49,895 nt of DNA, taken from positions 1 through 49,895 of the forward strand of contig JASEEV010000010.1 of the NCBI GenBank assembly GCA_030019435.1, read 5' to 3'. This document shows positions 27,390-48,793 of this stretch, one piece after another. Numbering within the stretch: position 1 is the first letter of the stretch; each line of letters starts with the position of its first letter. The translations under genes and the position numbers were made by a program. The notes beneath the pieces are model-generated. The model saw only the letters and a program-made list of their open reading frames with translations, made no database searches and was not told the origin of the DNA. Source of the DNA: Methanocellales archaeon (lineage in GTDB: Archaea; Halobacteriota; UBA148).

Positions 27390-27648
27390 CCCGAAGGGCG
27401 GGGGAGCGACAGCGACCGAAGTGTAATGGAGGAAGAGAGGCATATTGAAAGCCCTCGTTTGGTGGTTCAGTTTCATCACTATATTTTCTATTTTCTGCAC
27501 TTTAAAGATGCCTATCCATTAAAATGAAGCAATTACCTATTGAATTGTTCAATATTTTAGTAACAATGATTATATAGCCCAACATAAGCAAAATACTTAA
27601 ATATAAGCCCATATATTAGTATATAGCCATTACTTAGGTGGAATTGAC

Positions 27649-27882
27649 CTGTCTGATATCTCGTTAGCAGCAATAACTCGCATCGTTAAAAAAGTAGACC
27701 CACATATCCGTATAGGGAAGTCAACAAAGGTTGAACTCCTTAACACCGTTGAGGAATATGCTACAAAAATTTCAGAGATTGCTATCACAACAGCACGGAA
27801 CGCAAATAGAAGTACTGTATTAACGCAGGATATTGAAAATGCAAAAGAACAGTTGATAAAAGGAATAGTATTTGCCAAATAA
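27649..27882 (+). CDS. Archaeal histone-fold protein, apparent CTG start (absent from the ORF track)
   Basis: Reads (M)SDISLAAITRIVKKVDPHIRIGKSTKVELLNTVEEYATKISEIAITTARNANRSTVLTQDIENAKEQLIKGIVFAK*; aligns by eye to the archaeal histone core (PIAPIGRIIK...RKTIKAEDIELA) with the R-D pair; AGGTG SD 8 nt upstream; stop abuts the next ATG. Confidence 0.8.
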   Translation: MSDISLAAITRIVKKVDPHIRIGKSTKVELLNTVEEYATKISEIAITTARNANRSTVLTQDIENAKEQLIKGIVFAK

Positions 27883-29985
27883 ATGAGGAAAATTATTTTG
27901 AACCAAAAAAAAGATTGCGAACCCCATTCCGTCAAATATACCTCTATTGACGAGCATCTAATGAATTTTGGTGCAGATATTAAAGAGATTGAAAGAGTAA
28001 AAAGAAAGTACCCAATGAAAATTCCACATTACTTTTTAGGATTAATTAAAGAAAAGGAGGATCCTATTTGGAAACAATGTGTTCCGTCTATAGAAGAACT
28101 GAAAGATGTTTACAATATTGAAGATCCCCTGAGAGAGGAAAAACATACAAGGGTCTCCTGTCTCGTTCATAAATACCCGGACAGGGTCCTATTATTAGTC
28201 AGTAGTAAATGTGCAATGTATTGTAGATTTTGTACACGAAAAAGAAAAGTGGGCAGAACTCAACAGATTTCTATGGTGGAAATTTTCAGAGCAATAGATT
28301 ATATTAGAGAACACAAAGAAGTAAGGGACGTATTAGTATCAGGTGGTGACCCATTAACAAGGACGGATCGTGAACTCGAAATTATTCTTAAGGAGTTGCG
28401 ATCAATCCCCCATGTTGATATAATACGAATAGGCACTAGAATACCATGTGTGCAACCATCGCGAATTACTAAAAGACTAGCAAATATGCTAAGAAAATAT
28501 CACCCATTATATATAAATATCCATTTTAATCATCCTATGGAGATTACTGAGGAGTCTAAGAAGGCATGTGAGACATTAGCGGATGCGGGGATTCCACTAG
28601 GTAGCCAAACGGTTCTATTGAAAGGGGTAAACGATTCGGTAGAGGTCATGAAGGAATTGGTACAGAAACTCCTAAGTATCAGGGTTAAACCATATTATGT
28701 TTACCAATGTGACCCTGTTATGGGTGTAGAGCATTTTAGAACTTCTATAGATGTGGGAATAAACATAATGAAGCAACTACAAGGATTTACCTCAGGTCTA
28801 TGCATCCCACATTTTGTTATAGATGGACCTGGCGGTAAAATTCCTATCTCACCTCAATATGTTAAAGAAATTACTCCCGAAGAAATCATTGTTACAAATT
28901 ATTTAAATGATATGTATACTTATCCAAATTCACACAAGGTTTTTTCAAATGAATTGATAAATAAAGAAAGATTAAGAATTGGGCTTACATTTAATCTTAA
29001 AAGAGATCCTGCGAAAAATGAGAGATTTGATAAATATTCAGAATTTGATGATATATCCACTATTGATGCGATTAGAAAGGCAATAGAATCTGGTGGATAT
29101 GAAGTTGTTTTGTTGGAGGCAAATCTAGATTTCATTGAAAAATTGAAAAAAACTCGTGTTGATTTTGTATTTAATATAGCAGAAGGCATAAATGGAGATA
29201 GTAGAGAATCACAGGTGCCAGCAATATTAGATATGTTCAATATTCCCTATTCAGGATCTGGGGTTTTGACTCAAGCTATTACTTTGACCAAGAGCATGAC
29301 AAAGGATATACTGCTTTATCACAATATTCCAACTCCAAATTATCAATTATTTAAAAATACTCGTCAAAAACTTAAACCAGCTTTAAAATTCCCATTGATA
29401 GTAAAACCGAACTGCGAAGGATCAAGCAAAGGGATCAATAATAATTCATTAGTATTTGATGATGAATCATTAACAAAACAGATAAAATATGTGATAAATA
29501 ATTATTCCCAAGATGCTTTGGTTGAGGAATATTGCAACGGGCGGGAATTTACCGTATCTATTCTGGGAAATGTAAAACCTAAGGTTTTGCCTATTGTCGA
29601 AATAACATTCGACCATTTACCTGAGAATATAAACAAATTTGATTCTTACGAGGTTAAATGGATTTACGATAACCCGAAAAATCCTATTGACCCTATAAGT
29701 TGCCCAGCTAATCTCACACCAAAATTAAGAAAACAAGTAGAAAAGATTGCCCTTGATGCATATTCCGTTTTAGGATGTGTTGATTGTTGCAGAATAGACC
29801 TTAGACTTGATTCTAATGGCATACCTAATGTACTTGATGTTAATACTCTTCCTGGTTTAATACCTGACCCAAAACAAAATTCAAGGTTTCCAAGAGCCTG
29901 TTTTGCAGCAGGTATGACCTATAATCAAATGATTCTTGAGATTTTACATGCCGGGATGATTCGATGTGGACTGCGTAATAAATAG
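27883..29985 (+). CDS. Fusion protein: lysine 2,3-aminomutase (KamA-family radical SAM) + D-Ala-D-Ala ligase-type ATP-grasp
   Basis: N-half: YPDRVLLLVSSKCAMYCRFCTRKRKVG (CxxxCxxC), YYVYQCDPVMGVEHFRT, HFVIDGPGGKIPISPQY; C-half: FNIAEGINGDSRESQVPAILDMFNIPYSGSG, FPLIVKPNCEGSSKGI, RIDLRLDSNGIPNVLDVNTLPGL. Confidence 0.92.
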   Translation: MRKIILNQKKDCEPHSVKYTSIDEHLMNFGADIKEIERVKRKYPMKIPHYFLGLIKEKEDPIWKQCVPSIEELKDVYNIEDPLREEKHTRVSCLVHKYPDRVLLLVSSKCAMYCRFCTRKRKVGRTQQISMVEIFRAIDYIREHKEVRDVLVSGGDPLTRTDRELEIILKELRSIPHVDIIRIGTRIPCVQPSRITKRLANMLRKYHPLYINIHFNHPMEITEESKKACETLADAGIPLGSQTVLLKGVNDSVEVMKELVQKLLSIRVKPYYVYQCDPVMGVEHFRTSIDVGINIMKQLQGFTSGLCIPHFVIDGPGGKIPISPQYVKEITPEEIIVTNYLNDMYTYPNSHKVFSNELINKERLRIGLTFNLKRDPAKNERFDKYSEFDDISTIDAIRKAIESGGYEVVLLEANLDFIEKLKKTRVDFVFNIAEGINGDSRESQVPAILDMFNIPYSGSGVLTQAITLTKSMTKDILLYHNIPTPNYQLFKNTRQKLKPALKFPLIVKPNCEGSSKGINNNSLVFDDESLTKQIKYVINNYSQDALVEEYCNGREFTVSILGNVKPKVLPIVEITFDHLPENINKFDSYEVKWIYDNPKNPIDPISCPANLTPKLRKQVEKIALDAYSVLGCVDCCRIDLRLDSNGIPNVLDVNTLPGLIPDPKQNSRFPRACFAAGMTYNQMILEILHAGMIRCGLRNK

Positions 29986-29996
29986 GTGAATTTAAT

Positions 29997-30998
29997 ATGA
30001 ATATCGCAATGATTTATTCAAAAGGAGATATGTCAACAGCATTTCCTTACGATTTCAAAGGAAGGGAAGATAATGAAAGTGTTGAGGATGTAAAGAAGGC
30101 ATTAATATCACTTGGCCATGAGGTAGTTGTTGTTCCGGCAGACGATTGTATGTTTGAAACACTTAAAAAAATGATAGGAAAAAACAATCTGGATCTGGTT
30201 TTTAACTTGGCTGATGATGGATACAATTTGAATACGCAACTAGAACCTCAAATTCCCGCAATGCTCGACCTTCTGGGTATACCTTATACTGGTTCGGACC
30301 ATCTATGTCTTGGAAACTGTTTAAATAAGGTCAGAACAAAACATTTACTATTAGCAAATGGCCTTCCGACGCCGAAATTCAAGATATTTAATAGGAAAAC
30401 ATCTAATAAATTGGATATTTCTCAACTTAAATTTCCGCTTATTGTTAAGCCTTCAAGAGAGGATGGAAGCATAGGCATAAAAAGAGATGCTGTTGTAGAT
30501 GACCAAAAATCGTTAATTAAAAAGGTGAATGATACAATTGAAAAGTATAATCAACCGGCGCTCGTGGAAGAATTTATTGAAGGACGAGAGGTAGATGTAG
30601 GCATAATAGGGCGAGAGAAATTAATTGTACTTCCAATATCAGAAATAAATTTTACATTGCCCACCGGGGAAAGAAATTTTATATCTTACAATGGGAAATG
30701 GGAAGAAATGAGTATCTATTATCTTGGAACGACATGCCAATGCCCTACAAGATTGAATGTAGCACTCAAGAAGACCTTGAAAAAAATGGCAAAAAAGGCA
30801 TACAAATTAATGGGTGTAAAAGATTATGGACGAATCGATTTTAGAATAAGTAATGATGGTAATATCTACATACTCGAAGTAAATCCAAATCCAGATATTT
30901 CGAGAGATTCCGGGCTTGCAAGAATGGCAAGAGCATATAAAATGACCTATGAAAATTTAATCGATCGGATTGTAAAAACATCACTTGATAATGAATAA
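29997..30998 (+). CDS. D-Ala-D-Ala ligase-like ATP-grasp protein
   Basis: LDLVFNLADDGYNLNTQLEPQIPAMLDLLGIPYTGSDHLCL; FPLIVKPSREDGSIGI; YGRIDFRISNDGNIYILEVNPNPDIS. Confidence 0.9.
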   Translation: MNIAMIYSKGDMSTAFPYDFKGREDNESVEDVKKALISLGHEVVVVPADDCMFETLKKMIGKNNLDLVFNLADDGYNLNTQLEPQIPAMLDLLGIPYTGSDHLCLGNCLNKVRTKHLLLANGLPTPKFKIFNRKTSNKLDISQLKFPLIVKPSREDGSIGIKRDAVVDDQKSLIKKVNDTIEKYNQPALVEEFIEGREVDVGIIGREKLIVLPISEINFTLPTGERNFISYNGKWEEMSIYYLGTTCQCPTRLNVALKKTLKKMAKKAYKLMGVKDYGRIDFRISNDGNIYILEVNPNPDISRDSGLARMARAYKMTYENLIDRIVKTSLDNE

Positions 30999-31014: not shown

Positions 31015-31557
31015 ATGAAAAATGGGGTATATCTTCGTAAAGTAGAATTAAAAGATACAGAAATTTTATTTAAATGGTTTAATGATAAAGAAAATGTAAA
31101 ATATATGAGCACCATAATGAGATGTAACCCCCATTCAAAAGAGAGTATTGAGAATGAGATAAACAATTCTGATGATAATTACGAACGCCTTTTTATGGTA
31201 TGTGTTAACAGTGATGAAAAAACAATAGGATATGCGGGCATAGATGATATTGACTTTAATGACAAAAGAGCCGAGATATTTTTCCTGATCGGTGAAATAG
31301 AAGAAAAAAGAAAAGGTTATGGTAAGAAAATTGTAAAACTACTGTTAGATTATGCCTTCAATGAACTATGTTTAAACAGCCTTTTTGCAACCGCAACAAT
31401 AGAAAATAAACCAGCAATTAGTGTGCTTGAAAAAGCTGGCTTTAGCCGGATTGGAATAAGACGCCAATACAATTATATTAATAGGAAATATCTTGATGAA
31501 ATATTTTTTGATATAACACATGAAGATTATGAGATTTCAAAACGGAATAATATATAA
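31015..31557 (+). CDS. GNAT N-acetyltransferase (RimJ/RimL-like)
   Basis: VYLRKVELKDTEILFKWFND; FFLIGEIEEKRKGYGKKIVKLLLDYAF; ENKPAISVLEKAGFSRIGIRR. Confidence 0.9.
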   Translation: MKNGVYLRKVELKDTEILFKWFNDKENVKYMSTIMRCNPHSKESIENEINNSDDNYERLFMVCVNSDEKTIGYAGIDDIDFNDKRAEIFFLIGEIEEKRKGYGKKIVKLLLDYAFNELCLNSLFATATIENKPAISVLEKAGFSRIGIRRQYNYINRKYLDEIFFDITHEDYEISKRNNI

Positions 31558-47153: not shown

Positions 47154-47742
47154 AACTCAGAGCACAGTCAAGTCAGCGATGAAGATGATGGGTGCCCATG
47201 TCATTAATGCAGTCGATGAGCTCAAAGATGACCAAGTAGGTGCGGTAATCGATCACATCTTAAGCGCGAGAAAGATCTTTGTGATAGGTGCTGGTCGTTC
47301 AGGATTGGTCGGCAGAGCGTTCGCCATGCGGCTGATGCATCTGGGGCTTAGGGTGTTCGTGGTTGGAGAGACCATCACCCCAGCTGTGGAAAAAGGTGAT
47401 CTCCTAGTAGTCATCTCTGGCTCAGGTGAAACGCAATCCGTCGTAGATCTGGCCAAAATCGGAAAGTATCTAGGGGCGAAGATGATCTCGATTACATCAA
47501 ATCCAAAGTCAAAAGCCGCAAGGCATGCTGATGTGCTGATCGTACTAGGGAAGAGGGTTAAGACAAATGAGATGGATTACCTAGAGCGTCAAGTAAGGGG
47601 GACGCATAGATCATTGGCACCACTGGGAACGCTATTCGAGATCACGTCCATGGTTTTTCTGGACGGGATCATCGCTGCGTTGATGGAAATCACCAAGAAG
47701 AGGGAGATGGATCTCAAACTAAGACATGCGACCTTGGAGTGA
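47140..47742 (+). CDS. hxlB: 6-phospho-3-hexuloisomerase
   Basis: SIS domain: FVIGAGRSGLVGRAFAMRLMHLGLRVFVVGETITPAVEKGDLLVVISGSGETQSVVDLAKI; LAPLGTLFEITSMVFLDGIIAALM. Confidence 0.92.
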   Translation: MSKDETQSTVKSAMKMMGAHVINAVDELKDDQVGAVIDHILSARKIFVIGAGRSGLVGRAFAMRLMHLGLRVFVVGETITPAVEKGDLLVVISGSGETQSVVDLAKIGKYLGAKMISITSNPKSKAARHADVLIVLGKRVKTNEMDYLERQVRGTHRSLAPLGTLFEITSMVFLDGIIAALMEITKKREMDLKLRHATLE

Positions 47743-47746
47743 TAAC

Positions 47747-48793
47747 ATGAAGGAAATAAAAAATTTATTAGAAAAACTGTCAAATGCGCATGGCATCTCT
47801 GGGCATGAGGGAAATATCCGGGCGATTGTCGAGGAGGAAATTCGTTCGTACGTCGATGAAGTCAGGATGGACAAACTTGGAAATCTCATTGCGACGAAGG
47901 AAGGAACTTCGCCGTCTATCATGCTTGCTGCCCACATGGATGAGATCGGCTTGATGGTCAAATATGTGGATGATGACGGTTTTATCAAATTTGTCAAGGT
48001 TGGCGGCTGGTTCGACCAGACATTGCTCAACCAACGCGTCATACTTCACACAGAGAAAGGAATGCTAACTGGCGTCATAGGATCAAAGCCACCCCATAGG
48101 ATGAAAGAAGAGGAAAAGAAGAAGGTGATTGAGGCAGATGACATGTTCATCGATGTTGGGGCGACAAGTAAAAAGGATGCCCTAAAATTGGGCATAAGAG
48201 CAGGTACGTCGATCACCATAGACAGGGAACTCCGCCCTTTGGCAAATGATATGGTCACTGGCAAGGCGTTCGACAATAGGGCTGGGTTGGTGATGTTGAT
48301 CGAAGCTCTAAAGCGAACGAACGCAGAGGTGACGGTGCATGCAGTTGGGACTGTCCAAGAGGAAGTTGGACTGAAAGGTGCAAAAACATCTGCCTTTGGA
48401 CTGAGCCCAGATGTTGCTATTGCAACGGAGATCACCATTACGGGTGACCATCCAGGTATCGAGAAAAAAGATTCCGCCATAGAAATCGGCAAAGGACCAT
48501 CGTTAACGGTCTTGGATGCATCTGGGCGTGGACTCATCACGTCCGAACCGGTGCTGAGATGGCTTAGAGAAACGGCTGAGAAAAACAAAATTCCTTACCA
48601 ATTAGATGTCTCCAGCGGAGGAACGACAGATGCGACTGCAATTCAGCTAACAAAGGCTGGCATCCCTTCTGGAACGGTAAGCCTACCAACGAGATATGTC
48701 CACTCGCCGGTCGAGGTGATCAGCCTAAGAGATCTCGATCGATGTGCGGAGTTGATCGCACGCTCCATCGAGACTGTGGATAGGTACTTTTAG
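47747..48793 (+). CDS. M42-family metallopeptidase
   Basis: LAAHMDEIGLMVKYVDDDGFIKFVKVGGW; AFDNRAGLVMLIEAL; GTVQEEVGLKGAKTSAFGLSPDVAIATEITITGDHPG; SGGTTDATAIQLTKAGIPSGTVSLPTRYVHSPVE. Confidence 0.95.
   Translation: MKEIKNLLEKLSNAHGISGHEGNIRAIVEEEIRSYVDEVRMDKLGNLIATKEGTSPSIMLAAHMDEIGLMVKYVDDDGFIKFVKVGGWFDQTLLNQRVILHTEKGMLTGVIGSKPPHRMKEEEKKKVIEADDMFIDVGATSKKDALKLGIRAGTSITIDRELRPLANDMVTGKAFDNRAGLVMLIEALKRTNAEVTVHAVGTVQEEVGLKGAKTSAFGLSPDVAIATEITITGDHPGIEKKDSAIEIGKGPSLTVLDASGRGLITSEPVLRWLRETAEKNKIPYQLDVSSGGTTDATAIQLTKAGIPSGTVSLPTRYVHSPVEVISLRDLDRCAELIARSIETVDRYF

Follow-up and report, generated by a model that had tools for sequence, protein, structure and literature searches.

What does an archaeon make with a lysine aminomutase that is joined, in one polypeptide, to a ligase resembling D-alanine-D-alanine ligase? 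The window that we analysed, a stretch of 49,895 nucleotides from a Methanocellales archaeon (contig JASEEV010000010.1), contains a single uninterrupted frame at positions 27883–29985 on the forward strand, which encodes 700 amino acids from ATG to stop. The initial annotation had described it as a fusion of a lysine 2,3-aminomutase to a Ddl-type ATP-grasp domain and had named the motifs of both; the frame, the Pfam matches and an alignment to the solved lysine 2,3-aminomutase 2a5h bear this out, and NCBIfam, AlphaFold2 and PDB matches agree. The N-terminal half (amino acids 1–352, positions 27883–28938, forward strand) is a KamA-type radical SAM/PLP aminomutase domain (KAM), recognized by NCBIfam and by the Pfam families Radical_SAM (amino acids 106–256, 1.8e-16) and LAM_C (amino acids 297–356, 3.9e-10). 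Only the first half of LAM_C is present, and the ligase starts where the second half would be. The C-terminal half (amino acids ~353–700, positions 28939–29985, forward strand), termed Ddl1 here, is an ATP-grasp ligase domain that matches Dala_Dala_lig_C at amino acids 483–688 (3.5e-35). We rejected a sequencing slip as the origin of the fusion, as the same fused architecture is found in open frames of four other genomes, where it spans 702–813 amino acids (two soda-lake Thermoplasmatota MAGs, one Zodletone Thermoplasmatota MAG and one Spirochaetales MAG).

The fusion is followed on the same strand by a second Ddl-type ATP-grasp ligase, Ddl2 (333 amino acids, 29997–30998, Pfam Dala_Dala_lig_C 2.2e-38), and by a GNAT acetyltransferase (180 amino acids, 31015–31557, Pfam Acetyltransf_3 3.4e-21). 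The gaps are 11 bases between fusion and Ddl2 and 16 bases between Ddl2 and GNAT. We refer to the four modules KAM, Ddl1, Ddl2 and GNAT as the cassette.

For the aminomutase half, the substrate can be assessed by comparison with the lysine 2,3-aminomutase of Clostridium subterminale (2a5h), to which it aligns over residues 41–348 with about 50% identity (E 4.5e-107). The two proteins share the three radical SAM cysteines, the PLP lysine and two aspartates. The cysteines that serve [4Fe-4S] and SAM lie in the motif CAMYCRFC (amino acids 110–117, positions 28210–28233), which is invariant in all KAMs aligned, and Lys319 (28837–28839) corresponds to the PLP lysine Lys337 of the clostridial enzyme. 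Asp277 (28711–28713) and Asp314 (28822–28824), all on the forward strand, align with clostridial Asp293 and Asp330, the pair that binds the side-chain amine of lysine in the clostridial enzyme. Both aspartates are found in every full-length cassette KAM that was scored; we set aside three partial ORFs that end before at least one of the sites (L013, L033 and L085) and one divergent, 28%-identical outlier (L073). KamA paralogs of the same phylum have other residues at these positions: Arg is paired with Met or Ile in six of them, and Glu with Ala in two. Furthermore, the curated lysine aminomutase model outscores the glutamate and arginine models on the fusion, with a score below its equivalog cut-off. 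The lysine specificity that had been proposed earlier is thus supported, and the KAM half very probably makes beta-lysine from L-lysine, as judged from these residues and model scores. It is not a standard AblA, the aminomutase encoded in ablAB operons: the fusion scores 425.8 bits against the AblA equivalog TIGR03820 (cut-off 525.4), and the cassette KAMs form a clade separate from AblA. In comparison to both 2a5h and AblA, the KAM of the fusion is shorter, as it lacks the second half of LAM_C, and it is joined to a ligase.

The ligase half aligns to Ddl structures (best 3r23, E 1.9e-31). To compare active sites, we aligned 63 Ddl1 and 55 Ddl2 sequences with E. coli DdlB, whose numbering is used here. 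Neither set shows any variation at Lys97, Lys144, Asp257 or Asn272, Lys215 and Arg255 each differ in at most one Ddl2 sequence, and Glu270 is either retained or replaced by Asp, with Asp in the window's Ddl1. A glutamate that corresponds to Glu15, the residue that holds the amine of the first substrate in DdlB, was matched by eye in a gapped alignment in 104 of 104 Ddl1-type rows. A degenerate active site, which would have spoken against the initial annotation, was seen in neither half of the fusion, and the key ATP and Mg residues of Ddl either do not vary or change conservatively across the 63 orthologues. The substrate pocket differs from that of a D-alanine ligase: in nearly all Ddl1 and Ddl2 sequences Tyr216 is replaced by Trp and His63 by Glu. 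Ser150, Gly276 and Ser281 are retained in Ddl1 and mostly changed in Ddl2. We read Ddl1 and Ddl2 as two probably active ligases that would have different substrates, neither of them making D-Ala-D-Ala.

The cassette ligases share the ATP-grasp fold and the ATP and Mg residues with D-alanine-D-alanine ligases (E. coli DdlB; 1iow, 4c5a, 8evy), whereas they stay below the curated Ddl cut-offs (for the fusion, 155.2 bits against TIGR01205 with a cut-off of 245.65), have a longer loop after the NxxPG motif and occur in archaea not known to have murein. With the archaeal pseudomurein Ddl model NF053643 (curated score 500), a Methanothrix Ddl2 scores 39.5, and this model is not among the best 25 of 53 families for the window protein. 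Another Ddl-like protein occurs outside the cassette in relatives of the window (L014–L017, four proteins of the same phylum). None of these has a KAM nearby, and two of them (L015 and L016) share their frame with an N-terminal part that resembles a methyltransferase.

It had also been proposed that beta-lysine is channelled directly from the aminomutase to the ligase. With an alignment of 57 proteins from the window and the loci as input, AlphaFold2 predicts two well-folded domains with a mean pLDDT of 90.2, and pLDDT falls below 50 only at residues 1–16 and in the linker between the domains (amino acids 352–361, positions 28936–28965, forward strand). The predicted folds are the expected ones in both halves: Foldseek retrieves 2a5h as the best fold match (E 2.3e-36) together with many Ddl structures (E about 1e-24). 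The pTM is 0.58; together with the low-confidence linker this means that the model predicts no fixed arrangement of the two domains relative to each other. Direct channelling is thus not supported: the linker is floppy, and most relatives have separate KAM and ligase genes.

To place the fusion among its relatives, we used the Ddl1 alignment to scan the genomes collected in GTDB. The scan resulted in 80 loci, nearly all from MAGs and named here as recorded; genes in high-GC loci were called as mechanical ORFs. They are spread over many archaeal and bacterial phyla and come from Thermoplasmatota, Methanotrichaceae, Methanoperedens, Woesearchaeota, Desulfuromonadales, Ignavibacteriales, Gemmatimonadetes, Aminicenantes, Omnitrophota, Calditrichaeota, Patescibacteria and others. 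Including the window and its relatives, KAM is present in 64 of 85 loci and at least two Ddl-type domains in 78 of 85, counts that are not frequencies in nature because the loci were chosen by their similarity to Ddl1. KAM and Ddl1 are usually encoded by two genes, which often share a few bases of overlap, and in all 63 loci measured they lie on the same strand within 1.7 kb of each other. Their pairwise distances are correlated (r = 0.79, 62 loci), with none of 2000 permutations reaching this value. This linkage and co-inheritance suggest that Ddl1 acts on beta-lysine.

The way in which the four modules are fused varies. Three genomes of the window's family (L009–L011) have separate KAM and Ddl1 genes with about 20 bases of overlap, and their Ddl2 is fused to the GNAT homologue, as it is in related archaea; in a further genome (G025, L012), all four are separate genes. 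The unfused homologues in this archaeal family keep the module order of the window. KAM-Ddl1-Ddl2-GNAT is the order in archaea, and the usual bacterial order is Ddl1-Ddl2-GNAT-KAM. In 25 loci, most of them bacterial, the GNAT that separates Ddl2 from KAM belongs to a different family, and in Omnitrophota loci we found two ligases and KAM and no GNAT. The fusion of the Spirochaetales genome has neither Ddl2 nor GNAT adjoining. The same genome (G044) contains a second, different KAM and Ddl cluster (L130, 2969–8329), in which two genes of no identified family lie between the ligases. In Myxococcota, two ligases are fused and no KAM is nearby, which indicates that the ligases can work without an adjacent aminomutase. 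In seven such loci of Myxococcales type (e.g. L097, 4903–8397), the two-Ddl fusion lies beside a gene for a peptidase of the S58 (DmpA-type) family, which includes beta-peptidyl aminopeptidases. In a Patescibacteria MAG, a PLP decarboxylase of the ornithine/DAP/arginine type follows KAM-Ddl1-Ddl2-GNAT (L028, 3960–5138). One locus appears to be decaying (L013, 8806–9918, G016:C2): its KAM frame enters the end of Ddl1 and the middle is missing.

We thus propose, with a probability of about 0.58, that the fusion is a bifunctional enzyme of the four-module cassette and that the cassette builds a small N-acetylated peptide containing beta-lysine. The KAM half, a radical-SAM/PLP enzyme, would convert L-lysine to beta-lysine, a step that is strongly supported by the sequence. 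The Ddl1 half would then spend ATP to activate a carboxylate as acyl phosphate and may couple beta-lysine either with another beta-lysine or with some partner amino acid. The next peptide bond would be formed by Ddl2, a paralogue whose pocket residues differ, and the GNAT would acetylate a free amine. Enzyme classes and gene linkage point to a small N-acetylated beta-lysine-containing peptide as the end product, perhaps a compatible solute. The fusion would keep the first two enzymes together; the pathway does not need it, because KAM and Ddl1 are separate neighbours in most lineages. Several observations speak against this proposal: the Spirochaetales fusion that adjoins neither Ddl2 nor GNAT, the Omnitrophota loci in which no GNAT was found, the Myxococcota ligases far from any KAM, and the score of the KAM half under the AblA cut-off. 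An N-acetylated dipeptide solute has a precedent in the N-acetylglutaminylglutamine amide (NAGGN) osmolyte pathway, where Ngg combines a GNAT with an ATP-grasp ligase. The cassette shares this pairing, whereas the NAGGN pathway has no aminomutase and Ngg-type models are not among the best matches listed for the Ddl2-GNAT proteins. An Rfam search of 26 cassette loci returned one tRNA only and no salt (DUF1646) or c-di-AMP riboswitch, so that an osmolyte role has no regulatory support. The union of a radical-SAM aminomutase and a peptide ligase suggests an enzyme that comes ready to build beta-amino-acid peptides independently of ribosomes and NRPS. That this is a widespread undescribed pathway of archaea and bacteria, which makes N-acetylated beta-lysine peptides via two Ddl-type ligases and in which KAM and Ddl1 were merged in one lineage, seems to us about an even bet. 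We found no description of the cassette in the open-access literature searched, an absence that does not prove it to be new. Common as the cassette is, family models place its ligases nearest to D-alanine-D-alanine ligase and its KAM is easily read as AblA.

Among the closest known systems is the route of AblA and AblB to N-epsilon-acetyl-beta-lysine in methanogens and some bacteria, which likewise involves a lysine aminomutase and a GNAT acetyltransferase. The cassette has two additional ligases, and its GNATs are not AblB. Could the cassette merely replace AblB? KAM and a GNAT are both present, and AblB (TIGR03827) has no match in the window's genome and is absent from its family. Of 41 related genomes, none has both the cassette and an AblB that exceeds the cut-off. 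Three Methanothrix-type genomes with the cassette likewise have no AblB match; in the genomes of this type that we tested, the lysine-type KAM with the highest score is of the cassette type. For Methanothrix_A MAGs, the osmolyte has been inferred from ablA and an unusually divergent ablB homologue (PMC9128505), which would also fit a replacement. However, the two ligases, with intact and distinct active sites, are the more constant part of the cassette, the GNAT family differs between archaea and bacteria, and Ddl1 is co-inherited with KAM. Furthermore, four genomes have both systems: two soda-lake Thermoplasmatota (G041 and G042) have the fused cassette and a canonical ablA-ablB pair side by side, and two Desulfuromonadales (G064 and G065) have the cassette and ablAB. 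This suggests that the cassette probably makes something else. Thus, N-epsilon-acetyl-beta-lysine is unlikely to be the only product, and we regard the replacement of AblB as a quite improbable sole function.

The product with beta-lysine might also be no solute and instead a specialized metabolite or a building block of the cell surface or of a cofactor. Beta-lysine and ATP-grasp ligases are known from antibiotics, and such ligases also from cofactor tails. In addition, four Desulfuromonadota-type loci (L035, 3954–5720; also L037, L039 and L042) encode a GNAT-histone-deacetylase-like fusion protein (Pfam 3.9e-73) close to the cassette, suggesting that the product is deacetylated again. We consider this explanation unlikely, as no transporters, NRPS or resistance genes were recognized among the recurring neighbours and as the cassette is spread over many phyla, small-genome archaea included, more widely than a typical antibiotic. 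An anti-phage defence function was rejected, as PADLOC gave no match for any of the three proteins of the window. Lastly, the two halves might act on unrelated substrates and have been fused by neutral chance inside an operon. The genes are adjacent and often overlap in relatives, so that a minor shift of frame could join them, and the flexible linker and the pTM of 0.58 would suit such an origin. This is very unlikely in our view, since the fused form persists in several lineages as one clade and the linkage of KAM and Ddl1 holds across 63 loci, those with another gene order included.

With regard to its origin, the cassette of the window probably was acquired horizontally, as it forms a low-GC island (GC 34% compared to 46.5% in the surroundings; GC3 26% compared to about 50%). 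The five fused proteins (window and L019–L022), which come from five lineages of three phyla, form one clade of the KAM tree (support 100/98), apart from the host's own family. A quick Ddl1 tree places the window with these fused proteins and with one unfused Ddl1 of Lokiarchaeota. A single fusion event followed by horizontal transfer fits best. As to carriage by a virus or plasmid, viral contigs yielded only three weak relatives, and none of the plasmid records covers 80% of the fusion. No McrA, the marker that we used for methanogen status, was found in the window's genome.

In the relatives, the unfused cassette is found a few genes beyond an M42-type peptidase gene. The window contains a peptidase of the same type (47726–48793) and no cassette between it and the contig end; the host may thus have lost the old version, although the assembly is 94% complete. 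Directly upstream of the fusion, and within the same low-GC island, lies a small ORF with an archaeal histone fold (27622–27882, forward strand, Pfam CBFD_NFYB_HMF 4.8e-07); its start codon is uncertain and its stop directly abuts the ATG of the fusion. Two related PRiA4_ORF3-like proteins are encoded near both contig ends (51–665 and 48944–49648).
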